Shown: positions 5,605-19,548 of the stretch, in pieces
How the letters are laid out: the number at the start of each line of letters is the position of its first letter
Numbering within the stretch: the stretch's first letter is position 1
Assembly: GCA_030527325.1 (NCBI GenBank)
Contig: JAUNBA010000007.1
Location: forward strand, 1 to 64,000
Length of the DNA: 64,000 nucleotides
Source of the DNA: Slackia sp.
GTDB lineage: Bacteria > Actinomycetota > Coriobacteriia > Coriobacteriales > Eggerthellaceae
Direction: 5' to 3'
Made by a program: the position numbers and the translations under genes
Notes under the pieces: model-generated
What the model saw: only the letters and a program-made list of their open reading frames with translations
Database searches by the model: none
Told to the model about the DNA's origin: nothing

Positions 5605-5808
5605 GGAGCGCATCGGCCGACGCGGGCATCGCGAACGCACCCGAACACGATAACCGCGCAGACGCACCGGCAGAAAACGATACCTCTCTCTCACGTTTCG
5701 AACCGCGGGGCGCCTGCGCGCGAACGCCGCGCGAACGCGGCCTCGCCCCAGGGCCCGGCCGGCAGGCACCCACGCCGCGGCGCATGCCCGCGAGAGAAAG
5801 GAACTCCC

Positions 5809-6501
5809 GTGAACGAAGAAGCAGAATCCATCCTGGTCGTCGACGACGAGCAGTCCATCACCGACTTCGTTTCCTACAGCCTGATGAAAGAAGGATTCAA
5901 AGTCGACATCGCCTCCAACGGCGAAGCCGGCCTCGAAGCGGCCATGCGCAAGCATTACGACCTGTTCGTGCTCGATATCATGCTCCCCGGCATGGACGGC
6001 TACGAGCTGTGCCGCCGCCTGCGCGCCCGCACCGCGGCGCCGGTGCTCTTCCTTTCCGCCCGCGACACCGAGCTCGACAAGGTGGTCGGCCTCGAAATAG
6101 GCGGCGACGACTACCTGGCCAAGCCTTTCGGCGTGCGCGAGCTGATCGCCCGCGTGCGCGCCCTGCTGCGCCGCGGCTCGATGGACGCCGCAGCCGATTC
6201 GGGCGCGCTGTGCGCCGCAGGCATCACGCTCGACGAAGACCGCCACACCGCCGTGGGCGAAAACGGCCCCATCGACCTCACGCCGCGCGAATTCGAGCTG
6301 CTGGCGGCCCTGATGAAAGACGCGGGCAAGGTGGTCACGCGCGAAGACCTGCTGCGCGAGGCCTGGGGATGGGAGTACATCACCGAAACCAAGACGGTCG
6401 ACACCCACATCAAACGCCTGCGCGACAAGATATCGGCCGCAGGCTTCGACCCGGGCATCATCGAAACCGTGCGCGGATACGGCTATCGCCTGCGCGCCTA
6501 A
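5809..6501 (+). CDS. OmpR/PhoB-family response regulator
   Basis: Cytosolic DNA-binding regulator of a two-component system, 230 residues. The receiver domain (about 5-120) has the acidic pair in VVDDE, the phospho-acceptor Asp near residue 56 in FVLDIMLPGMDG, the Ser of LFLSARD and the conserved Lys in LAKPFG. The C-terminal winged helix (about 135-228) ends with the typical VDTHIKRLRDKI and VRGYGYRL segments. The start is GTG 5809, eight bases after GAGAGAAAGGAA; upstream ATGs extend into non-homologous sequence. A histidine kinase follows 126 bases downstream and is almost certainly its partner. The stimulus and targets are unknown. Confidence 0.93.
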   Translation: MNEEAESILVVDDEQSITDFVSYSLMKEGFKVDIASNGEAGLEAAMRKHYDLFVLDIMLPGMDGYELCRRLRARTAAPVLFLSARDTELDKVVGLEIGGDDYLAKPFGVRELIARVRALLRRGSMDAAADSGALCAAGITLDEDRHTAVGENGPIDLTPREFELLAALMKDAGKVVTREDLLREAWGWEYITETKTVDTHIKRLRDKISAAGFDPGIIETVRGYGYRLRA

Positions 6502-6627
6502 CGCCGTCCGAGTATTCCGCGTGCTGCGCGCGATCGAGCGTCGCGCGACTTCGCCCCGCTCCGCATCGCGCGCTTCTCCGCTTCGCCTTGCCGGCGCGGC
6601 GAAGCGCAAGACCGAGGATCTTTTCCG

Positions 6628-7665
6628 TTGAAACGACTGCAAACATATTTCTCCGTCCTCACGGCGCTGTTCTCCATGGCGTCGGCTTTGGCCATGCTGT
6701 TCATCATCGTGTTCGTGGGACTCGAGCACCCGGCCTTCCTGGCCTGGTGCATCTTCGTCGGCTGCACGTTCACCTTCATCGTCAGCCTCGTCATCGGCCA
6801 CTATATGGCCGAGCCGCTGTCCACCATGCACCGCGAGGCGCGCGCCGTGCTCGAGGGCGACACCCGCGTGACCGTGCGTCCCGACGGCAAGCTCTACGAG
6901 GCCGACCTTCTGGCCGACGACTTCGCCGCACTCAGCGAGCAGACCAAAACCAAAATGAGCGATCTGGCCGTCCAGCAAAAACGCCAGACCCAGTTCATCA
7001 GCGATGTCGCGCACGAACTGCGCACGCCTCTGACCGCCATCCGCGGCAACGCCGAAACCCTCATGGATCCCGACATGCCGCCTGCGCTGCGCGAACGCTT
7101 CTGCCACACCATCATCAGCGAATCGGAGCGCCTCACGCGCATGGCCAACGAGCTTTTGACCCTGCAGCACATCGAGGAAGGCACCGACCAGGTGATGATG
7201 CAGCGCGTTAACCTGCACACGATCGCCGAAGACGTGGCCGACGCGCTCGGCCCGCTCGTGGAAGAACGCGGCGGCACGCTCGAGATCGTCGGCGAGGCGC
7301 CCGACGTGCTGGGCATACCCGACCGCCTGCAGCAGGTGCTCTTCAACCTGGTGGCGAACGCGGCGCGCTTCATCGGCGAAGGCGGGCATATCGAGGTGAA
7401 GCTCGAAGGCCTGGCCGACCGTTCCGTCGTCAGCGTTTTGGACGACGGCCCGGGCTTCGGCAACGTCGATCCCAAGCTGCTGTTCACGCGCTTCTACCGC
7501 GGCGACAACTCGCGCGCGCGCAACAGCGGCGGCACGGGACTGGGCCTCGCCATCGTGAAAAGCGCCGTAGAGGCCCACGACGGCACCATCGAAGCATTCA
7601 ACCGCGCGACGGGCGGCGCCTGTTTCATCGTCACCCTCCCCAGCATCCACGAACACGTGCATTAA
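6628..7665 (+). CDS. Membrane sensor histidine kinase
   Basis: Sensor kinase of 345 residues, partner of the upstream response regulator. Two hydrophobic helices (about 9-32 and 37-58) are separated by only a few residues, so there is no extracellular sensing domain; the signal is probably membrane-borne or intracellular. A linker leads to the HisKA motif SDVAHELRTPLTAIRGN (phospho-acceptor His near 129). The ATPase motifs follow: NLVANAARF, DDGPGF and GGTGLGLAIVKSAV. The start is TTG 6628 with a modest GAGG upstream; this is the only start that keeps both helices intact. The overall layout is PhoR/VicK-like, but no specific role can be assigned. Confidence 0.9.
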   Translation: MKRLQTYFSVLTALFSMASALAMLFIIVFVGLEHPAFLAWCIFVGCTFTFIVSLVIGHYMAEPLSTMHREARAVLEGDTRVTVRPDGKLYEADLLADDFAALSEQTKTKMSDLAVQQKRQTQFISDVAHELRTPLTAIRGNAETLMDPDMPPALRERFCHTIISESERLTRMANELLTLQHIEEGTDQVMMQRVNLHTIAEDVADALGPLVEERGGTLEIVGEAPDVLGIPDRLQQVLFNLVANAARFIGEGGHIEVKLEGLADRSVVSVLDDGPGFGNVDPKLLFTRFYRGDNSRARNSGGTGLGLAIVKSAVEAHDGTIEAFNRATGGACFIVTLPSIHEHVH

Positions 7666-9798: not shown

Positions 9799-9834
9799 CG
9801 AGCCGCGCCGTGCACGAACGCACGACGCGGCTCG
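9799..9834 (-). terminator. Hairpin between convergent GNAT and surface-protein genes
   Basis: A 9-bp stem CGAGCCGCG/CGCGGCTCG with additional GTGC/GCAC pairing inside. On the minus strand it is followed by GTCGTTTTCG, so it most likely terminates the SipW/TasA-like operon ending at 9896, with possible use in both directions. Confidence 0.5.
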
Positions 9835-9895: not shown

Positions 9896-10639
9896 CTACT
9901 CCGTCCGGCGCAAGCCGCGCAACGCGGCCAGCAGCGCGACGCACGAAGCGAGCGCCGCGGCAAGCGCTCCCACGAGCGCTCCCGCCGCCGTATCGGACGT
10001 CTTCGCGATCGCATCGCTCGGCGCGGCCGCGTCGAAGTGCGGCGCGCCCTGCGAATCCTGAGACCCCGTGCCGCCCGACGAGGAATCGGGCTCCGTCGAG
10101 CCGGGCGTGCCTTCCTCCTGCGCGTAGAACGTCCACGTGAGCACGCGCTCGTCGCCCGCCGTATCGGCCCCGAGGCTCGTCGGCACCTCTATCGTCACCG
10201 AACCCTCGACGGCGCCGTCGCCTTCGAGCGTCGCCAGGCGCACCGGCTGCGCCATCCCGTGCGAATCGCCCACCGTGCCGCGCTGCATCCGGCCGTCGAA
10301 GACCGCTTCCACCGCGATGTCCTCGATGCCCGCCACCTGACCCGCATCATACGAAGCGCCCGCGTACACCGTCACCGGCTCCTGCACGCCCACCGCTTCG
10401 ATGGCGAATTCCTGCCGCGCCGTATCGCCCGGCATCAGATCCTTGCACGACGCGAACAGGTCGCCGCCTTCCGCGTCGCGATACGAAAACGTCTTGCTTT
10501 GCCCGTCGTAGACAAGCGTGGGAACGCCGTCGGCGGGCAGCGCCGCGAACGCCGCCGCGCCGCCGCATGCCAATGACGCCGCCAGAGCCACGGCCGAAAC
10601 CGCGACCGCTCCTTTATATGCCGAACGCTTCATGCTCAT
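9896..10639 (-). CDS. Secreted surface protein with C-terminal sorting-like anchor, last gene of the SipW operon
   Basis: A 247-residue exported protein. The N-terminus (MSMKRSAYKGAVAVSAVALA...) is an ordinary signal peptide, probably cut after AAAFA. The mature part has DLMPGDTARQEFAIE and LTWTFYAQEE segments, which resemble TasA/camelysin-type beta-sandwich proteins. A Ser/Gly/Gln linker leads to IAKTSD, a strong hydrophobic helix and the basic tail RGLRRTE, the layout of a sortase signal although LPxTG is degenerate. The start ATG 10639 overlaps the upstream stop as ATGA, implying translational coupling. It may tether the fibre proteins of the operon to the cell wall; that role is inference. 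No sortase lies in the window. Confidence 0.7.
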   Translation of the reverse strand: MSMKRSAYKGAVAVSAVALAASLACGGAAAFAALPADGVPTLVYDGQSKTFSYRDAEGGDLFASCKDLMPGDTARQEFAIEAVGVQEPVTVYAGASYDAGQVAGIEDIAVEAVFDGRMQRGTVGDSHGMAQPVRLATLEGDGAVEGSVTIEVPTSLGADTAGDERVLTWTFYAQEEGTPGSTEPDSSSGGTGSQDSQGAPHFDAAAPSDAIAKTSDTAAGALVGALAAALASCVALLAALRGLRRTE

Positions 10640-11412
10640 CGCGCTTCCCCTTCCGCCGCCGGTGCTGCAGCGGCGCCGTCCGCCAACACGCCGTCGGGTC
10701 CGACGGCCAGACCGCTCGAGGGGCCCCATGCCGCCGCGAACGCATCGGCGGGATCGGCCTGGACGGCCTGCATGGCGATATCGACCACCAACCTGCGGCC
10801 GTCGTCGTAGCGAGGATGCTCCGTGCAGCGAGCGATCAAATCGCCGCTCGAAGCGCCGGGCTGCAGCGGAGACGTCCAGTAATACAGGCCGTCGTCCGCG
10901 CGCACCCACGAAGACGCCTGGCCAGGCGCGCCGAACGCGCCCCATTCCATGGCGTAATCGTACGCCTGGCCGTCGTCCGCCGGCGCGGATGCGCGCTCGA
11001 CGGGCTCCTGGCCGAGCCTGACGCCGTTCGCATCCTCCCAATACACGCTCACCTGGGCACGCATGTACGAGTCCACATTGCCGGGATCGGGCGGATTGGC
11101 CGCCTTCACGTGCTCTTTGACGCCCGCCTCGGGCGCGAACTGCTCGTCGATGGCAGGCTCGAGCGTTCCCCTCGTGAAGAGGTTCGGCAGCTGCGATGAG
11201 GCCTGATACCACGCGAACACGCCGCCCGCGCACGCGAGCGTCAGGCATACGCAGGCCGCCGCCGCGATAAGCGCGCGGCGCGCCGGACGCGGCGCGCCAT
11301 CGCGCGGGGGCATCGAAAACCCTGCGGGGTCCGATGCCGTCGTGCGCTTCGTCGATCCGCCGCGCTCGATGCGCACGGGCGCCGCATGCATCCCCTGCTT
11401 CGATCGTTTCAT
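10636..11412 (-). CDS. SipW-dependent TasA/camelysin-like exported protein
   Basis: A 258-residue protein. After a long basic cytosolic N-terminus (about 1-44) comes a hydrophobic helix ending FAWYQASSQLPNLFTRGTLEP, which matches the alternate signal peptide cut by SipW-type peptidases (hydrophobic core, AW/Y-F, then N-x-F-x-x-G). The mature region contains YWEDANGVRLGQ and DDGLYYWTSPLQPGASSGDLI, the aromatic-rich YYY-x-x-x-L-x-P-G signature of this family. The ATG at 11412 follows directly on the upstream TAA. It is probably a minor fibre subunit; function inferred from family and operon. Confidence 0.75.
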   Translation of the reverse strand: MKRSKQGMHAAPVRIERGGSTKRTTASDPAGFSMPPRDGAPRPARRALIAAAACVCLTLACAGGVFAWYQASSQLPNLFTRGTLEPAIDEQFAPEAGVKEHVKAANPPDPGNVDSYMRAQVSVYWEDANGVRLGQEPVERASAPADDGQAYDYAMEWGAFGAPGQASSWVRADDGLYYWTSPLQPGASSGDLIARCTEHPRYDDGRRLVVDIAMQAVQADPADAFAAAWGPSSGLAVGPDGVLADGAAAAPAAEGEAR

Positions 11413-14400
11413 TTACGCTTCACCGCCTTCTTGGGCCGAAGCCGCCGCATGCTGGGCGGCGAACTCGTTTTTCGCACGCACGGATCCGTCGAGCCACGAG
11501 GAATCCTTCAACGTGTTCGTGCACGTCACCGTCGCGGGGGAAACCAGGTCGAGCACCGCCGAAGACGGATCGGCCGGATCGATCGTTCCCTGCGGGCATT
11601 CGATCGTCGCCTCGTAGCGCCACGCCCATGCGGCGTCTTCGCTCACTTTGTAGCGTCCGACCGGCATCGCGAGCGTCACGCGCGCGCTGTAGAAGCCGTC
11701 GGCATCAGGCGCGGCGGGCATATCCACGAAGACCATGCGCGTCGCAGGCGTTTGCCCGGGCGCGACCGGACCCGCGTCTTCGACCGTCAAGGCGAACGTC
11801 TGCCCTGCAGCGGCGCTATCCTTCGTGCGCTTGACCAGCGTCAAAACGGCATCGAAGTCGAAGACCGCATTGCCCTGGGCGTTCGTCGGCTTCACCGTCG
11901 GATCGGTCGACGCGCTCGAGACGTACAGCGCCACATTGCGATCGCTCAGCGGCGCGAAGGTCGTGCCGACGGCGCCTTCGGGCGTCGGCGCGTAGGAAAC
12001 CTGCTGCACGTTCACCGTGAGGCGTGCCTGCGCATACGGGGCCTTGAAGTACGCCTTCACGGGCGTTTCAGCATGCGAATCGAGCGCCCACAGCAAATCG
12101 TCGGTGTTGACCGCGCCCGCTGCGTCGGCCGAGCGAACCTGCCTGGTCACCGGATACAGATCCATATCGGAGGCGATCGGCGTGCGGCAGAACTCATCCC
12201 ACGCGGCGATAGAGGCGTCGGGACGCACCCACTGCCACGTGTTGAAGAGCTCGCGCATATCGAGCGCCGTCGATGCGTCGAGCTGGGCGGCGATGGCCTG
12301 CCACGCCTCGGAGTCGAGCACCACGTCCTGCATCATCCCGTCGGGACCGGGTTCCTGCGTCACGAAGCTGCGGCCTTCCGTCTCGGAAACATGGGCCGTG
12401 AACAGCACGCCGCCGTCCGTGCCGTGATAGCGCACCTCATGCACGCGCTCGAACACCGCGGTATAGACGGCGCCCGAGAACACGTCGCGCGCGTCGAGCG
12501 CATGCTCCTCGCCCGCCGACACCAGCGAACCGGGCTCGGCCGCGGATACGTAGCCTTCATACCAACCTTTGAACTCATAGCCCGCATACGGCGCGGCCTG
12601 GAGCATCAGCGCGCCTTCGGGACCGCGCGCAAGCGTACGCACCGTGGAAGGGTCGACGCCTGCGGCCGCAAGCACGTCGTCGATGTTGGAGTTCACCGTC
12701 ACCGACGCGACGCGATACACCGCGAACAATTCCATGGCATGCTCGACCGCGTCATGCTCGTCGGTCAACGCGGGCGTGCCGTCGGCGGCCCAGAGCGCGT
12801 ATTCCGCTCCGTCGGCAGGACGCTGCTCGGTCCATCCGACGAACACCGCGCGGCCGCCCACGGCGGCATCGACGGCGTTCATGTCGAATGCGGGCACGCC
12901 CTCGGGAGCCTTGCCCAAAGGATCGCCCTGGTTGCGCACCACCGTGGCGGTCTTGCCTTCCGCGACGTGATACACCACGGCCAAAGGCTCGTAGTTCGCC
13001 ACGAACGTATACGTATAGCCGGGCGCGATCTTATACGTCAACACGGCATGCTCGTTGGAAACGGGCGTACCGTCGGGTGCCGGCGCGCCGCCGGCGTCGA
13101 CGGCGTCGACCGTGCGCACCGCGCCGTCCGAGCGCTCGACCGTCCAGGACTTGAGCTCGTAGGGAACGCCATCGGCGCTGACCAGGGTCGATGTATCGGC
13201 GGTCACGCGCACGTCGATCGTGTAGTCGTCGTTTTCCGCAGGCGCGAGCTCGGCGGTGGGATCGAGCGGCACGTTCACGCCCGAGCCTGCGACGACGCCC
13301 GAGCGGGCGATGTTCGTCGTGGTGTCGTACGCGTATTTCGCATAGACCGGATACAGGTCGGTGGCGCGCTCCGTCTCATCGCCCACGTCGATCGTGTAAT
13401 TCAGCGCAAGGTCCGCGTCGGCCGTGCAATAGCCGTCGCCCGTGTTGTAGATGGCGTTCCACAACGCGCCGCCGCGCTCGCACGGCTGGCCCGCGGTGCC
13501 GTCGATCCAGCCCAGGAAGCGATACCCGGGTCGATGCATCGAGGCGTCCGACGGCGAAGGCTCGCCGACGAGGTCGGCGGCCTGAGCGCCCAGCACGGCA
13601 TCGAGGTCGGCCTCGGCGATCGGATTGCCCGAAAGCGGGAAGCTGAAGTCGCTCTTCGGGTCATGCGCGGCGTCCTTCAGGATGGTGGACAGGTACTGAC
13701 GCTGCACCGTCACGTCGGAAACGCCGCCCGCTGCGACGGGCACCTCATGAAACACCACGTCGGCCGTCATGTGGGCCACGTATTCGTAGGTCCTGTCGGT
13801 ATTGTGCTGGAAGCGCGTGCGATCCCAGTCGGGTTCGGCGGACAGATTATGCTTGCCGCCCGAACCTTCGGCCACCCAGAACCAGAACGTGTAGCCGGGC
13901 TGCGCCGTCACATGCACCGCGAAATCGCCGATGCCGGACGTCAGGCTGTTCGGCTTGCCCGTGAAGTTCACCGTGCCCGCTCCCGGGAAGTCGACCAGGG
14001 CCTTGATGTCCCATTCCCTGTCTTTGGTCATGTGGCCGTACGCCTTCATGGCGGAAACCACCTGGTACTCGGCGGTCAGCGCATCGGCTCCCGAACACGG
14101 GTCGGGAGCTGCGGCCCAATGCTGCAGATTCGTGCCGTAGAACACGCCGAATTCCGCAGGATCGAGCACCTGAAACGCGCTTCGGTACGGCTGCCACACG
14201 CTGCGGCCCAAAGCGTATTCCTTATGGTTCTGCATGTTGCCGTCGCCCGTCAGCGATTTGATCATGTAATCCACGCGGTATTCGAGTCGCGCCTCGTACG
14301 TATGCTGCTGCGTCAGATCGACCTCTTCGGGAAGCACGTATTCGGGTGTATCGGCCACGCGGCGGCTGCTGCCGTCGGGCATCTGCTCGTACCAGCCCAA

Positions 14401-16989
14401 GAAACGGTACCCGTCGGGCAATGTGCCGTCGTTTTGCGCGCCCGTCATCGTCACGGCGTACCGGCCGTCCTGCTTTTTGACCACGTCGGTGCGGCCCACG
14501 CCCTCGCGCAGCGTGAAGTCGTCGGAGGCGTCTTGCTCGTTGCCTTCGAAGCGCGTAATGATATTCGAGGCGTAATCGGCGTAGACGGGATACAGGTCCA
14601 TCGGCTGCACGATGGCGTCGCCTGCTTTCACGAAGGCGCCCGCCTGCTCGATATCGCCCATCTGCGATGCCGTCACAGACGGATAGCCGCCGCCCGTCAC
14701 CGGATGCGGCAACCAAGTCCAGCCCAGAAACACCGCGTCGGGGCCCACGCCGCCCGTCGTGCGGTCGGCCTGCGGCTCGGCCGCCTGCGGCAACGCGGCT
14801 TCGTGGTCGTACCAATCGTCGCTCGTATCGGCATCGGGCGCGCCCGCCGTATTCACCACGTTGCCCGCCACGTCATGGAAGAGCACCTGGCCCTGGCAGT
14901 ACGCCACGAACAGATCGCCGCCCGCGAAGCCTTCGGCCGTGCCGGGGCCGGTATTGCGCGCCGTATACGCCGCATCGGCAGAGACGCGCTTCGCCGGGTC
15001 GGACACGATGGGATCGAAAAACACATGGGACTCGTCGACTTTATCGACCCTCACGTCGGGCTGGCGGTACCAGCCGTTGAAGCGATAGCCCCCGTTATGC
15101 GCGGCGTCGGATACCGCGGGCGTCGTCTCGGGCGAAACGCCGTTGAGCGTCATGGAAAAATCCATGTCGAAATCGCTCGGCATGAAGCCCTGCACCGCGA
15201 ACTCGTAGGGCGTGCTCGTCGACTGCGGGCGGCCTGCGCCCAACACGTCGCTTTCGCCGATGCCCGCCGTGCCCGCGCCCGGGAAGTCGAACGTCGCCTT
15301 CACGGCGTCGCCATGCACGGGAATGCCCAGGTCGTAATCCATGACCCACCTGTTGGCGTGCGGCGCGCCGTCCATATACGCGGTGCTGCGCTCGGTGCCG
15401 CCCGTGAAGTCGAAGTCGTGCGATTCCCAGAAGGAGCGGTCGGCATACGTCGTCTCGTCCTGCGCGCCGAACGAAGCCCCGCTGTAGACCTTCTTGTTAT
15501 TCTTGTTGAAGATGGCGGGGATATCCTTGTTCGTGCCCGGCTCGGCGCTGAAATGCGGCGCGAAATACGAATTCGTGATCGTGCAGCCGCCATCGTGGTC
15601 CCATTCCACCAAGCCGCCCAGATACAGGTTCTTCTGGATGATGGGGATGACCAGCACGGCGTTGTACAGATACGAATGCAGGTTGCCGGCGTAATGGCTG
15701 CGCACCACGTGGACCGCCTCGTCCGTGCGTGCCACCAGGCCGCCGACATACCCCACGTTGCCGGCGCCGACGCTTACGTACGTGGCGGCGTACGTGTAGC
15801 AATCGGCCGTGGAAAAGCAGTCCACCATATTGGCGGAGTTGCCGTACAACGAGCCGCAGATGCCGCCCGCGTACACGGCCTGACCCGCCACAGCGCCGAC
15901 CGCGATGTCGTACTTGTTATGCACCTGGGTGAACGTCAGGTTCTTCGTTCCATCGGCCTGGGTTTCGCGCAGCGGGGTCACGCGGCTGTATTCGATCGTC
16001 GAATTGTGCGCCACGCCGACGAGCGCGCCGAGGTACAGGCCCTCGCCGCCCAAGCCCGAAACGCCGACGGTCGAATTGTTGATAACGCGGCCGCCCTGCA
16101 CCTCCACGTCGTAGACGACGCAGTTCTCAAGCTCGCCCGCCACCATGCCGCCCGCCAGGCCGGCGTTGGTGATCAGCGACACGGCATTATTCGCCGGCGT
16201 CACCGACGACGTGCAGTTGGTCAGCTTGATATGCTCGAGGCGCGTGTTCTTCGCGCATCCCACGATGACGCCGCCGCGGTAGTCGGCGCCCACATAGGCG
16301 TCGGTGAAGTTGATGTTCTTGATGACGGCGCCGTCGGTCCAGGCGAACAGGCCCGTATCGGGGGCGGGAACGAACAGCTGGCGCTCGTAATTCAGTCCTT
16401 TGATGGTGTAGCCGTTGCCGTCGAAGGTGCCGCGAAACGGGTTGTCTTTGCTGCCGAACGTCAGCGATCCGATTTGAGAAATAATCTGGTCCACCTGGTC
16501 GCTCGTCAGATCGAGCGTCTTATCGGGCGCATCCGACATATCGAGCATGTAGTACACGCCCGACGTGTCGGCCGTGCGCGACAAAAGCACCTGGGCAAGC
16601 AGGTCGGAGAAGCTGCGGATGTAGGTGATTTCGCCCGCAGCCGCGCGCTCGGACGCATCCGTCGATCGAGGGTCGACAGGCGCAGGCGCGCTTTCCGCCT
16701 GGACGGATTCCGACGCCTTCGCGCCGTCGCTTGCCGCAGTCTGCTCGACGGCAGGATCGGGCGCAACGACGCCTTGGTCGGCCGCCGCGCTTTTCTGCTC
16801 GGGCGCGGGCGCAGCCGTCTCGGCCCCCTGCTCGAGCGCGTCCGCCGGCACGCTCTCTTCGGCGTAGGCGCTTTGCGGGGCCAAAGGGCACAGCGTCAGC
16901 GCCAGCATGAGCGACATCGCCACGGCGCAGCACCGCTGCCACCGCGTTCGCTTCGCCTGCATTCCCGTTCGTTCGGCATTCCCTCGCAT
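11413..16989 (-). CDS. Very large secreted surface protein (beta-helix plus InlB-type repeats)
   Basis: An 1858-residue exported protein. A signal peptide (about 1-43, cut after SAYA) and a low-complexity Ala/Glu/Pro region (44-110) come first. Residues about 170-560 are rich in GG-x-V-G, NG-Y-T-I-G-L and G-G-L-V-A-type turns typical of GLUG-like right-handed beta-helices. Residues about 560-1680 carry repeated units with GYRFxGWY/FLGW motifs, characteristic of Listeria-Bacteroides (InlB B-type) repeats; at least six such motifs are visible. The C-terminal 120 residues resemble a SpaA/Cna-B-like domain ending CTNTLKDSSWLDG...KNEF. There is no C-terminal membrane anchor. It is flanked by TasA-like genes with a TAATG junction upstream and TAAATG downstream. 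Likely an adhesin displayed on, or bound to, the fibre; inference. Confidence 0.8.
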   Translation of the reverse strand: MRGNAERTGMQAKRTRWQRCCAVAMSLMLALTLCPLAPQSAYAEESVPADALEQGAETAAPAPEQKSAAADQGVVAPDPAVEQTAASDGAKASESVQAESAPAPVDPRSTDASERAAAGEITYIRSFSDLLAQVLLSRTADTSGVYYMLDMSDAPDKTLDLTSDQVDQIISQIGSLTFGSKDNPFRGTFDGNGYTIKGLNYERQLFVPAPDTGLFAWTDGAVIKNINFTDAYVGADYRGGVIVGCAKNTRLEHIKLTNCTSSVTPANNAVSLITNAGLAGGMVAGELENCVVYDVEVQGGRVINNSTVGVSGLGGEGLYLGALVGVAHNSTIEYSRVTPLRETQADGTKNLTFTQVHNKYDIAVGAVAGQAVYAGGICGSLYGNSANMVDCFSTADCYTYAATYVSVGAGNVGYVGGLVARTDEAVHVVRSHYAGNLHSYLYNAVLVIPIIQKNLYLGGLVEWDHDGGCTITNSYFAPHFSAEPGTNKDIPAIFNKNNKKVYSGASFGAQDETTYADRSFWESHDFDFTGGTERSTAYMDGAPHANRWVMDYDLGIPVHGDAVKATFDFPGAGTAGIGESDVLGAGRPQSTSTPYEFAVQGFMPSDFDMDFSMTLNGVSPETTPAVSDAAHNGGYRFNGWYRQPDVRVDKVDESHVFFDPIVSDPAKRVSADAAYTARNTGPGTAEGFAGGDLFVAYCQGQVLFHDVAGNVVNTAGAPDADTSDDWYDHEAALPQAAEPQADRTTGGVGPDAVFLGWTWLPHPVTGGGYPSVTASQMGDIEQAGAFVKAGDAIVQPMDLYPVYADYASNIITRFEGNEQDASDDFTLREGVGRTDVVKKQDGRYAVTMTGAQNDGTLPDGYRFLGWYEQMPDGSSRRVADTPEYVLPEEVDLTQQHTYEARLEYRVDYMIKSLTGDGNMQNHKEYALGRSVWQPYRSAFQVLDPAEFGVFYGTNLQHWAAAPDPCSGADALTAEYQVVSAMKAYGHMTKDREWDIKALVDFPGAGTVNFTGKPNSLTSGIGDFAVHVTAQPGYTFWFWVAEGSGGKHNLSAEPDWDRTRFQHNTDRTYEYVAHMTADVVFHEVPVAAGGVSDVTVQRQYLSTILKDAAHDPKSDFSFPLSGNPIAEADLDAVLGAQAADLVGEPSPSDASMHRPGYRFLGWIDGTAGQPCERGGALWNAIYNTGDGYCTADADLALNYTIDVGDETERATDLYPVYAKYAYDTTTNIARSGVVAGSGVNVPLDPTAELAPAENDDYTIDVRVTADTSTLVSADGVPYELKSWTVERSDGAVRTVDAVDAGGAPAPDGTPVSNEHAVLTYKIAPGYTYTFVANYEPLAVVYHVAEGKTATVVRNQGDPLGKAPEGVPAFDMNAVDAAVGGRAVFVGWTEQRPADGAEYALWAADGTPALTDEHDAVEHAMELFAVYRVASVTVNSNIDDVLAAAGVDPSTVRTLARGPEGALMLQAAPYAGYEFKGWYEGYVSAAEPGSLVSAGEEHALDARDVFSGAVYTAVFERVHEVRYHGTDGGVLFTAHVSETEGRSFVTQEPGPDGMMQDVVLDSEAWQAIAAQLDASTALDMRELFNTWQWVRPDASIAAWDEFCRTPIASDMDLYPVTRQVRSADAAGAVNTDDLLWALDSHAETPVKAYFKAPYAQARLTVNVQQVSYAPTPEGAVGTTFAPLSDRNVALYVSSASTDPTVKPTNAQGNAVFDFDAVLTLVKRTKDSAAAGQTFALTVEDAGPVAPGQTPATRMVFVDMPAAPDADGFYSARVTLAMPVGRYKVSEDAAWAWRYEATIECPQGTIDPADPSSAVLDLVSPATVTCTNTLKDSSWLDGSVRAKNEFAAQHAAASAQEGGEA

Positions 16990-17711
16990 TAGCGACCTTC
17001 TTTCTGCGGCCAGCCCTCGGCCTCGAACACGCTCGGGCCGTTGTTTTCGCTTTGCACGGCCACGGCATCGACGGTGAAATCGAGCGTTCCGCCGCGATAC
17101 CGTTCCTGCGCTCCGTCGGCGTCGATCGAAAGGCCCGTGATCACCGGGGCGCTCGTCTCGCCCGCGCCCAGCACGGCGTCGTAGTAATACCAGCCGTCCC
17201 GATACGACCAGGCGGGATCGCCGATCGTATACGACGCCAGATCATCGGCGTTCGACGCCGCGCCGTGCTCGTCGGTTCCCTGCATATGCAGCGACACGCG
17301 CACGAACACCGGATGCGAGCTCGTGTTGCGCACGCGCACGATGCGGCTATGCTCGCCTTCGATGCCCACCGCCACCGGCTCGTCGGGCACCGCCACTTCC
17401 TCCCCCGAGGGGCCGCGCATGGTCTCGACCGCCTGGATGCCCACGTCGCCGAAGGAAAGCCGGTTGTTCGCATCCACCGAACGCACCGAGAACGAAACGG
17501 CCTGCAGCGCGGCCAAAACCGCGATCAGCGCCGCAGCGCACGCGATGCACAGCCTGCGCGTCTTGGCCGCAGGCGATGCTTTCACGCAGCCCGCGGCAGC
17601 GTCGGATGCGCCGCCCGCAGCAGCGTCGTCTTCGAAGGACTCGCCGGTAAGAGATGCCCGCGCCGCGTCATCTCGCATCGAAGAATCCTTGCTTCGCGCC
17701 TTATCGCCCAT
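16989..17711 (-). CDS. TasA/camelysin-like exported protein
   Basis: A 240-residue protein with an unusually long cytosolic N-terminus (about 1-62, acidic and Ala-rich) before a hydrophobic helix, LCIACAAALIAVLAALQAVSF. The helix is followed by VDANNRLSFGDVGI, a SipW-type signal with the N-x-x-x-F-G pattern. The mature part contains RVRNTSSHPVFVRVSLHM and WSYRDGWYYYDAVLGAGETSAPVI, the beta-strand and DGWYYY-L-x-x-G-E-T signature common in SipW-dependent proteins. The start ATG 17711 was chosen for the CAGGAGGTTG site 7-16 nt upstream. The stop shares a base with the next start (TAATG). Confidence 0.75.
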   Translation of the reverse strand: MGDKARSKDSSMRDDAARASLTGESFEDDAAAGGASDAAAGCVKASPAAKTRRLCIACAAALIAVLAALQAVSFSVRSVDANNRLSFGDVGIQAVETMRGPSGEEVAVPDEPVAVGIEGEHSRIVRVRNTSSHPVFVRVSLHMQGTDEHGAASNADDLASYTIGDPAWSYRDGWYYYDAVLGAGETSAPVITGLSIDADGAQERYRGGTLDFTVDAVAVQSENNGPSVFEAEGWPQKEGR

Positions 17712-17820
17712 AGCCGCAACCTCCTGTTCGCCGTATCCCGCGAGGCGGCGGCGCACCGGGCGCCGTCGCCTCGACGAAGGGCGGGGGCGGCCCAAGCCGC
17801 GCCCCGCGCTCCGCTACAGC

Positions 17821-17852
17821 CGAACGGCGCCGCCCGCAAGCCGCGCCGTTCG
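17821..17852 (-). other. Intergenic stem-loop after the major TasA-like gene
   Basis: A perfect 10-bp stem GCGCCGTTCG... with arms 17821-17830 and 17843-17852 and a 12-nt loop. There is no T-run, so it is unlikely to be a full terminator. It sits between the best candidate for the major subunit gene and the coupled downstream genes, where it could protect the upstream mRNA from decay or partly attenuate readthrough. Confidence 0.55.
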
Positions 17853-17863
17853 ACCGTCATTCG

Positions 17864-18562
17864 CTATTTCTGGCTTGCAGCCCACGCGATAGCGGCATCG
17901 GTCGCGTCCTTGGCGGACAGGACCTCGCTCGCGTTGGACTTGGCCACCATGTAGCAGCTCACCGTCATCGTGGGGCTGCCGGCGATGGAGGCGTTGGGGT
18001 CGGCGACGACCTCGGAGAACAGCTCGCCGGTCCACACGTCGGTCGTGCTGGGCTGCAGCATAGCTGCCTCGGCACCGTCGGCGACGTACATGAACAGACC
18101 GCCCTCATAGGCCTGAGCGCCGCCCGTGGCATGCTCGGTCGCCTGGCCGGCAACCGGCTTCCAGTGATCCTTCAGCGTGAAGTACGTACCGCTGCCCAGG
18201 TCGTTTTTCACATAGGCGAACACGTATGCGGCATCGCTCTTAGGAGCAAGGCCGATGTTGGGGTTTTTGGCCACGTGGCTGCCCGCGGTAAGCTTGGAGC
18301 CCTCGACCCACTTGTCCTCGACGATATTGCCGTTGACCTGGCCCTGATGGCCGCCCTCTTCAGGCTTCACTTCAGGCTTGAGGGGCTTTTCAGGCTGATC
18401 GGGATCGGTCGTAGGCGGTTTGATGTTGCCCACCGCGAACGTGTTGGTCAGCGAGCTTTGAGAGGCGTACCACGCCATCACGCCGCCCACGGCCGCAAGG
18501 GCCAGGCACAGCACCAGGGCGACGATCAAGCCCGTGCGCTTCTTCGTTTTTTCCATGTTCAT
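17864..18562 (-). CDS. SipW-dependent TasA/camelysin-like protein, probable major fibre subunit
   Basis: A 232-residue protein with a textbook alternate signal peptide. Basic MNMEKTKKR is followed by the hydrophobic core LIVALVLCLALAAVGGVMAWY and then SLTNTFAVGNIKPP. A Pro/Lys/Glu-rich stretch (about 50-70) precedes a mature domain with AYVFAYVKNDLG and TYFTLKDHW segments. TasA and camelysin polymerise into matrix fibres in other bacteria. The start ATG 18562 has AAGGAGC upstream. It directly follows the signal peptidase gene, as tasA follows sipW in Bacillus, and is first of the substrate genes; the stem-loop after it hints at higher expression. Major-subunit status is inference. Confidence 0.78.
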   Translation of the reverse strand: MNMEKTKKRTGLIVALVLCLALAAVGGVMAWYASQSSLTNTFAVGNIKPPTTDPDQPEKPLKPEVKPEEGGHQGQVNGNIVEDKWVEGSKLTAGSHVAKNPNIGLAPKSDAAYVFAYVKNDLGSGTYFTLKDHWKPVAGQATEHATGGAQAYEGGLFMYVADGAEAAMLQPSTTDVWTGELFSEVVADPNASIAGSPTMTVSCYMVAKSNASEVLSAKDATDAAIAWAASQK

Positions 18563-18608
18563 TGCTCCTTCCCATGCGAGCGCATCGCCCGGACGCGTCG
18601 CATACGGT

Positions 18609-18626
18609 GAAGGCCCGCAGGCCTTC
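18609..18626 (-). other. Small stem-loop between sipW-like and tasA-like genes
   Basis: Perfect GAAGGCC-CGCA-GGCCTTC hairpin in the 93-base gap. No T-run follows on the minus strand; possible mRNA processing or attenuation element. Confidence 0.4.
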
Positions 18627-18655
18627 GGTTCCGACCTTCGTTTCGATCGCTGGAT

Positions 18656-19204
18656 TCAGCGGCGCGCGTGGGCCCCGCGCACGCCGTCCGACGAGGCGCC
18701 GTCCTTCTTGCGGCCGCCGAACAGCTCGACGGCGATGGACAGAGCCAAAAACACCCCCACGAGGGAAACGATCACGAAAAAGCCGGTGCCACTCGTGCAC
18801 CATGCGTTGAGATAGCCGAGGAAAGGAATGCAGAACACAGGAACGCCCACCATGCGGGAAAACGGAACAGGGGCGGCATCATGCACGATGGCGCCGTTTT
18901 CGTCGACGTTGGCGATGCCCTGCGTGTAGAACAGGGACGATTCGGCATCGATGTCGTACACCTGGTGCGTGACCAAGGTGCCCGATTCCAAACTGAACGT
19001 GATGGCGTCGCCCACCTGCACGCTGGCGGGATCGTGTTCTTGAACGTAGATAAGCGAGCCCACCGGATATTGGGGCTCCATGCTGCCGCTGAGAACGGCA
19101 TACGGGGTAAGGCCTATGAGGCGCACGCCTGCAAACGCGATGAGCAGTGCCACGGCCACCGCCAGCACGATTCCGGATACAACATTGAAAACGCGCCGCA
19201 GCAC
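18656..19204 (-). CDS. sipW: SipW-like (ER-type) signal peptidase I
   Basis: A 182-residue membrane signal peptidase of the ER/SipW type, which removes the special signal peptides of the exported proteins encoded downstream. An N-terminal helix (about 8-30) leads to the catalytic Ser41 in LSGSMEP and the His80 in LVTHQVYDID that replaces the Lys of classical bacterial enzymes. A second helix lies near 133-160 before a basic tail. The usual G-D-A-N box reads FYTQGIANVDENG (Ile for the first Asp), with Asp101 nearby. The start is GTG 19204 with AGAGGTGA upstream. It is the first gene of the operon, and the downstream SipW-type substrates support the call. Confidence 0.88.
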   Translation of the reverse strand: MLRRVFNVVSGIVLAVAVALLIAFAGVRLIGLTPYAVLSGSMEPQYPVGSLIYVQEHDPASVQVGDAITFSLESGTLVTHQVYDIDAESSLFYTQGIANVDENGAIVHDAAPVPFSRMVGVPVFCIPFLGYLNAWCTSGTGFFVIVSLVGVFLALSIAVELFGGRKKDGASSDGVRGAHARR

Positions 19205-19378: not shown

Positions 19379-19452
19379 CACATAAGAATAAAACCACACT
19401 ACGGCAATAAAACGCTCATTAATGTGGCGCAACTTCGCGCTAAAACGCAGGT

Positions 19453-19484
19453 GAGGCGGGTCTTCCCGAAGGAAAACCCGCCTC
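19453..19484 (-). terminator. Hairpin downstream of the ABC permease gene
   Basis: A 9-bp stem GAGGCGGGT/ACCCGCCTC with an inner TTCC/GGAA extension and CGAA loop, about 65 bases after the permease stop. The T-run is distal (CCTGCGTTTT on the minus strand), so termination efficiency is uncertain. Confidence 0.5.
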
Positions 19485-19548
19485 AGAAAACGCGTGTAAA
19501 AATTTTTCGAAAATTTGCAAACGGCAATGCCGAAACGCCGCGAATCCG

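Follow-up and report, generated by a model that had tools for sequence, protein, structure and literature searches.

How might a very large secreted protein without an anchor of its own be displayed at the cell surface? This question is raised by six genes in a 64,000-nucleotide stretch of a Slackia sp. contig (the window), originally predicted to form a SipW/TasA-like fibre operon with a giant adhesin and a terminal anchor protein. That prediction held no display mechanism for the large protein, and its sequence suggests that the C-terminal tail could offer one. With moderate confidence, we propose a BsaA/TasA-type fibre that has a sortase-held base and into which the display protein would be docked through a C-terminal mimic of a donor strand. 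The genes are:

18656–19204, minus strand: gene 1, signal peptidase of the SipW type (Ser/His), starting with GTG
17864–18562, minus strand: gene 2, subunit with a SipW-class N-terminus
16989–17711, minus strand: gene 3, BsaA-like subunit whose SipW-class N-terminus has diverged
11413–16989, minus strand: gene 4, secreted display protein of 1858 residues, unanchored, with InlB-type repeats
10636–11412, minus strand: gene 5, BsaA-like protein with a SipW-class N-terminus; the gene 4 tail presumably docks here
9896–10639, minus strand: gene 6, sortase-type anchored protein, presumed base

All six open reading frames were found at their predicted positions on the minus strand, with the start of gene 6 corrected to 10639 and that of gene 3 most likely to 17711. 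Most junctions had been described as overlapping. Three of the five do overlap or abut (genes 3 and 4 have one base in common, genes 4 and 5 abut, and genes 5 and 6 overlap by four bases), but gaps separate genes 1 and 2 (93 nt) and genes 2 and 3 (148–152 nt, depending on the start chosen). Terminator-like hairpins flank the operon:

19452–19485, minus strand: terminator-like hairpin before the operon, 15 pairs
9799–9834, minus strand: terminator-like hairpin after the operon, 16 pairs

Together with the overlapping junctions, these hairpins suggest that the six genes may be transcribed jointly. The operon itself was borne out by comparison with other genomes. Genes 1 to 6 are complete and in order in 12 loci: the window, L016, L017, L018, L020, L021, L087, L088, L089, L091 (in which the gene 4 head differs), L092 and L098. 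Because the order is kept in these 12 complete loci, which are spread over more than one family of the taxonomic order, it is not due to chance. Six further loci (L019, L022, L093, L095, L099 and L100) are consistent with it and are broken off by contig ends. Carriage of the operon among genomes is patchy: a search with the giant protein found gene 4 in 8 of 138 searched genomes from the family, its own genome counted, and in 5 of the 12 same-genus genomes of that set. A scan of genome contigs with the giant protein gave four weak matches only, and viral contigs searched for genes 4 and 5 yielded no confirmed relatives.

The prediction of a Ser/His signal peptidase held. The gene 1 protein matched TIGR02228 at 82 bits (4.1e-23; cut-off 51.85), and Ser41 and His80 are invariant in 7/7 orthologues. 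Its profile matches SEC11A, the nearest solved structure (7.2e-11). Among SipW-type models, the SipW equivalog model NF046067 scored 70 bits on gene 1, below its cut-off of 190, and TIGR04088 matched 7 of 8 gene 2 orthologues at E <= 0.1 (best 1.6e-8), with the window's own gene 2 narrowly missing the 19-bit cut-off at 18.2 bits. At least three SipW-type signal peptides had been predicted; those of genes 2 and 5 stood, whereas the N-terminus of gene 3 has diverged.

At the level of sequence, genes 3 and 5 are remote relatives of BsaA. TIGR04090 (BsaA) matched 7/8 gene 3 members (best 7.7e-6) and 7/7 gene 5 members (best 1e-13); the window's own copies scored 14.3 bits (gene 3) and 23.4 bits (gene 5), well short of the 60-bit cut-off. 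The two genes are homologous to each other (hhalign 98.9%), and none of the five remaining pairings of genes 2, 3, 5 and 6 exceeded 6.2%; for the globular part of gene 2, kinship with genes 3 and 5 was not detectable (6.2% and 0.4%). The TasA/camelysin family PF12389, which had been proposed as a check, matched genes 2 and 5 (13.7 and 16.4 bits) under its gathering score of 22.5 and over the N-terminal part only. Profiles of genes 2, 3, 5 and 6 compared with solved structures gave nothing credible, and an AlphaFold prediction of gene 5 with gene 3 as a second row was unusable (pLDDT 41). In the globular parts, sequence comparison detected no likeness to TasA. Such likeness is confined to the mature N-terminal strand, which in protein 3 has diverged in most loci. 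The presumed donor strands are:

18428–18472, minus strand: gene 2 presumed donor strand, residues 31–45, WYASQSSLTNTFAVG
11167–11211, minus strand: gene 5 presumed donor strand, residues 68–82, WYQASSQLPNLFTRG

The original matrix-fibre reading is consistent with these sequences in its SipW-type processing, fibre-type operon, unanchored large protein and sortase-type last gene, and we refine it here: proteins 3 and 5 are BsaA-like.

Gene 4 also conforms to its description as an 1858-residue InlB-type repeat protein without an anchor. The repeats matched PF09479 (8.5e-9) and, just under the cut-off, PF18998 (1.1e-4), and part of the protein, read by eye, may be a beta-helix. By eye, an anchor or sorting signal is absent in 7/7 orthologues, and we therefore rejected self-anchoring of the giant. 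Taking as the central protein of each locus the one at gene 4's place, we found that those of L091, L093 and L094 match gene 4 over their last 71–153 residues only; in L091 and L093, VWA domains replace the repeat head (PF13519, 6.9e-6 and 1.5e-6). By sequence comparison, gene 4 heads are exchangeable, of repeat or VWA type, and the last ~150 residues are conserved. These include a candidate domain:

11497–11874, minus strand: gene 4 C-terminal Cna-B-like domain, with the Lys-Glu-Asn triad K1720, E1784 and N1825

The triad, in this order, is invariant in 13/13 modules. The same pattern is given for DUF7601 and other Cna-B-like isopeptide families (PMC12617251), and the domain is probably stiffened by an isopeptide bond. 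Weak DUF7601, SpaA or FctA matches occurred in 4 of 6 modules scanned and none in the window's own; the best Pfam scores (FctA, 19.6 bits; DUF7601, 19 bits) were both under cut-off. A structure prediction of the module alone (AlphaFold) was unusable (pLDDT 59), and because Foldseek found no match to this model at E <= 0.001, we assigned it no fold. At L097 (3978–7382), a DUF285 leucine-rich (LRR-headed) protein with its own SipW-type N-terminus stands in for the giant.

The module ends in a short tail:

11452–11496, minus strand: gene 4 C-terminal tail, presumed donor-strand mimic, WLDGSVRAKNEFAAQ

In sequence, this tail resembles the N-terminal strand of the mature gene 2 and gene 5 proteins. 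Position 0 of that strand is an aromatic or a large hydrophobic residue, followed by N at +9, F at +11 and mostly G at +14, in 30 of 32 mature N-termini, the selection pattern itself fixing the 0/+9/+11 spacings and two gene 5 proteins (L091 and L093) not fitting it. We built a matrix from those 30 segments only and scanned it over 18 central proteins. The window's tail ranked first of 1850 windows under this gene 2 and gene 5 matrix, and its Asn is invariant in 13/13. The best window near the C terminus was first of all windows in 9 of the 18 proteins and within the top five in 15, with poor ranks in L020 (46), L087 (10) and L094 (9). Among 3000 column-permuted matrices, one reached nine first ranks and six reached fifteen within five. 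The plain motif lies in the tail of 16/18 central proteins and occurs three times elsewhere in them.

Clostridia-class central proteins outside the training set gave a similar picture: the tail came first in 10 and within the top three in 14 of 16 proteins (those parts contained in loci, with the internal match L143 left out), and of 5000 permutations 6 reached ten first ranks and 7 reached fourteen within three. The 18 tails also outscored 132 other C-termini from 19 stretches (Mann–Whitney p 6e-9; the rows are related, so that p values here and in the neighbour test below are not independent), with scores of at least 5 bits in 8/18 tails and 3/132 other C-termini. The W...N.F piece as a SipW cleavage signal was a separate candidate, rejected for want of a hydrophobic stretch ahead of the tail.

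We regard as unlikely, though plausible, that the fibre is the same and the tail, whether a separate binding peptide or simply the last part of the Cna-B-like fold, contacts protein 5 in some other way, with W...N.F arising by convergence. The likeness lies mainly in three positions, for which hydrophobic convergence is possible, and the module is recognizable as a Cna-B-like domain in its own right. The spacing in the Clostridia class is also off by one residue: in the subunit N-termini read there by eye, N and F fall at +10 and +12, and in most tails at +9 and +11. A further point against mimicry is that the body of a C-terminal donor would lie on the opposite side of the groove from that of an N-terminal donor. 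Against convergence, permuted matrices almost never matched the 9/18 and 10/16 first ranks of the tail, and the L097 central protein, whose SipW-type N-terminus is genuine, is tail-less. That locus also lacks gene 5, and because it has neither tail nor gene 5, protein 5 is the likeliest acceptor of the tail.

A docking role for the tail makes its genomic surroundings of interest. The module had matches in 30 of 396 genomes of the window's class and in 14 of 321 genomes of the Clostridia class (17 matches; the class of G423, the source of L025). Loci were analysed for 47 matches; 5 further match rows from the window's class had none. The module stands at the protein end in 36/47 matches and is internal in 11/47. 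A BsaA-like or SipW-class gene lies within 1.5 kb downstream of 27/36 terminal matches (L116 being counted as lacking one only through an overlapping long open frame, gene 5 being present there) and of 0/11 internal ones. Tail-bearers had such a neighbour in 21 cases and lacked it in 4, as against 6 and 16 for the rest (p 1e-4), with an automatic tail pattern that overlooked tails whose first position is H or Y (L102, L105) and took a wrong stretch in L141. In the Clostridia class alone the counts were 8 and 3 for tail-bearers and 2 and 4 for the rest, which is not significant (p 0.16). Some internal matches (L124, L125 and L129) belong to proteins whose end is of the sortase type. A generic pilin domain was rejected as an account of the module, given the 11 internal matches without tail or BsaA-like neighbour.

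These neighbourhoods bear on an improbable account in which proteins 2, 3 and 5 form a fibre and the giant is merely co-expressed, held by protein 6 or the wall. Operon membership alone is no proof of contact, and gene 6, which lies beside genes 4 and 5, encodes the sole protein with a sorting-type signal. Yet a gene-5-type protein, not gene 6, directly follows the module in each of the 16 matches below 1e-20, and the tail resembles the subunit strands.

The last gene supplies the candidate base:

9899–10009, minus strand: gene 6 sorting-type signal, IAKTSD, hydrophobic stretch, RR

An anchored last protein with a sorting-like C-terminus had been foreseen, and we found it in variant form: by eye, [LI]x[KR]T[GSN]D followed by a hydrophobic stretch and a basic end is present in 7/7 gene 6 orthologues, and no anchor model matched. 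The signal peptide is, by eye, of the ordinary kind. SipW-class models gave a family match in 0/7 orthologues, and the SipW-type N-terminal strand was absent from all 19 gene 6 proteins scanned. Having a sortase-type signal and no donor strand, protein 6 may serve as the base that holds the fibre to the wall; with no detectable kinship to the subunits, it is no more than a putative acceptor. In the genome, which is 85% complete, a single sortase was detected; it belongs to class B (TIGR03064, 147 bits, slightly short of the 153.75 cut-off) and lies on another contig, not adjacent to the operon. A detectable subunit paralogy of gene 6 was tried and rejected (hhalign at most 5.5%).

In the docked-fibre reading that we favour, proteins 2, 3 and 5 would make up the shaft after export and cleavage by protein 1, the SipW-type peptidase. 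Cleavage would free a short N-terminal strand that enters the open beta-sandwich of the neighbouring subunit. Such a step is described for TasA, which polymerizes by inserting residues 28–38 into the next subunit with hydrophobic contacts at F29, I32 and F39 (PMC9674648). Analogy suggests that W0 may be equated with F29 and F11 with F39, the spacing here being one residue longer. Protein 4 would leave the cell by the ordinary secretion route, without an anchor, and serve as a tip or display protein. The ~15-residue tail after its Cna-B-like domain would imitate a subunit strand and dock the giant by filling an open groove in one of the subunits, of which protein 5 is the likeliest; the head could be exchanged and the docking module retained. 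Proteins 2, 3 and 5 would both donate and accept, protein 4 would donate only and protein 6 would accept only, holding the fibre to the wall through its sortase-type signal.

Sequence cannot reveal the polarity of such a filament. A very unlikely alternative has protein 4 starting the filament at the cell, with protein 6 as an accessory, much as TapA, a strand donor unable to act as an acceptor, of which 14 mature residues suffice in vivo, is placed at the filament beginning in Bacillus (PMC10151520). The sorting-type signal, present in protein 6 in 7/7 and in protein 4 in 0/7, points the other way, and VWA-domain heads would suit an exposed end.

Within the shaft, gene 2 is likely to encode the main subunit. 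The gap that follows it contains a hairpin:

17816–17857, minus strand: stem-loop between genes 2 and 3, directly after gene 2, presumed attenuator or stabilizer

The first 70 nt of the gap (17712–17863) fold at -41.7 kcal/mol, and the whole gap has a z of -2.93. A stable hairpin was present in 12/12 gaps folded (z -1.66 to -6.89) with unrelated sequences; L016, whose gap is 4 nt, was left out. Presumably the hairpin sets the ratio of genes 1 and 2 to genes 3 to 6. Our assignment of gene 2 draws on this recurring hairpin and on analogy with the Clostridium perfringens sipW-bsaA message, described as ending after the second gene with read-through (PMC7395162).

By sequence, this C. perfringens fibre, rather than Bacillus TasA, is the nearest described system. 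Its sipW-bsaABCRSD operon, like the window, has a SipW-type peptidase first and BsaA-class secreted proteins, and its polymerization is described as needing no neighbouring sortase gene (PMC7395162). A giant display protein and an anchored last gene are not named in the portion of that source cited here; the window has a giant with a C-terminal module and a sortase-type last protein. The C. perfringens operon also contains a two-component pair (PMC7395162), whereas in the window such a pair (by eye, a response regulator and a histidine kinase, 5784–7665) lies outside the operon, downstream and on the other strand. The tapA-sipW-tasA system of B. subtilis and the TasA/CalY/CapP system of B. cereus share with the window SipW processing and an N-terminal strand connector; the B. 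cereus system is described as sortase-independent, whereas the proposed base here has a sortase-type signal (PMC9674648, PMC10151520, PMC13082335). The globular parts are not detectably like TasA, and the proposed donor is the C-terminal tail of a large protein, which would take the part of the donor-only helper that TapA plays in Bacillus (PMC10151520).

SipW-dependent fibres are already known. Sortase-assembled three-part pili consist of tip, shaft and base, and have Cna-B-like isopeptide domains and VWA heads. The proposed fibre is like them in its tip, shaft and base plan, in its Cna-B-like isopeptide domains and in the VWA heads of L091 and L093, the three-part plan being described for the sortase-assembled pili of Gram-positive bacteria (PMC4282584). 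It is unlike them in that only protein 6 has a sorting-type signal; proteins 2 to 5 have none, so the shaft could not be joined by sortase in the usual way.

In the open-licence literature, SipW and Collinsella occurred in no common paper, the best matches for Eggerthella, Slackia, Adlercreutzia and Coriobacteri had no SipW or TasA, and the titles and abstract openings of the best matches described no such operon and no C-terminal donor strand in such fibres. The TasA and BsaA work cited above gives, in the portions cited, no account of adhesin carriage or attachment to the cell. Should the tail prove to be a docking strand, a single short peptide would predict the display proteins of fibres across many genomes of two classes and would suggest how heads are exchanged, so that fibres could carry exchangeable heads. 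Roles as tip, shaft and base would then fall to protein families that are mostly unnamed. More tentatively, we suggest as a possibility that interchangeable giant or VWA tips are mounted on SipW/BsaA fibres by polarity-reversed donor-strand complementation from the window's class to the Clostridia, above a sortase-held, acceptor-only base.

Several loci depart from the six-gene plan. L090 (G355; 12249–13686) has genes 5 and 6 only, with genes 1 to 4 absent beside them. In L094 and L101, several proteins like the BsaA and SipW classes are arrayed around one peptidase or one anchored protein; the anchored protein matches both the gene 6 and the gene 3 models, as in a related, richer operon. In L118, short pieces match the C-terminal module and, weakly, genes 3 and 6, and resemble a decayed operon. 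A single open frame in L096 (4062–5606) joins a gene 6-like part with a sortase-type end to a BsaA-like part, and is perhaps a fusion or a frame artefact.
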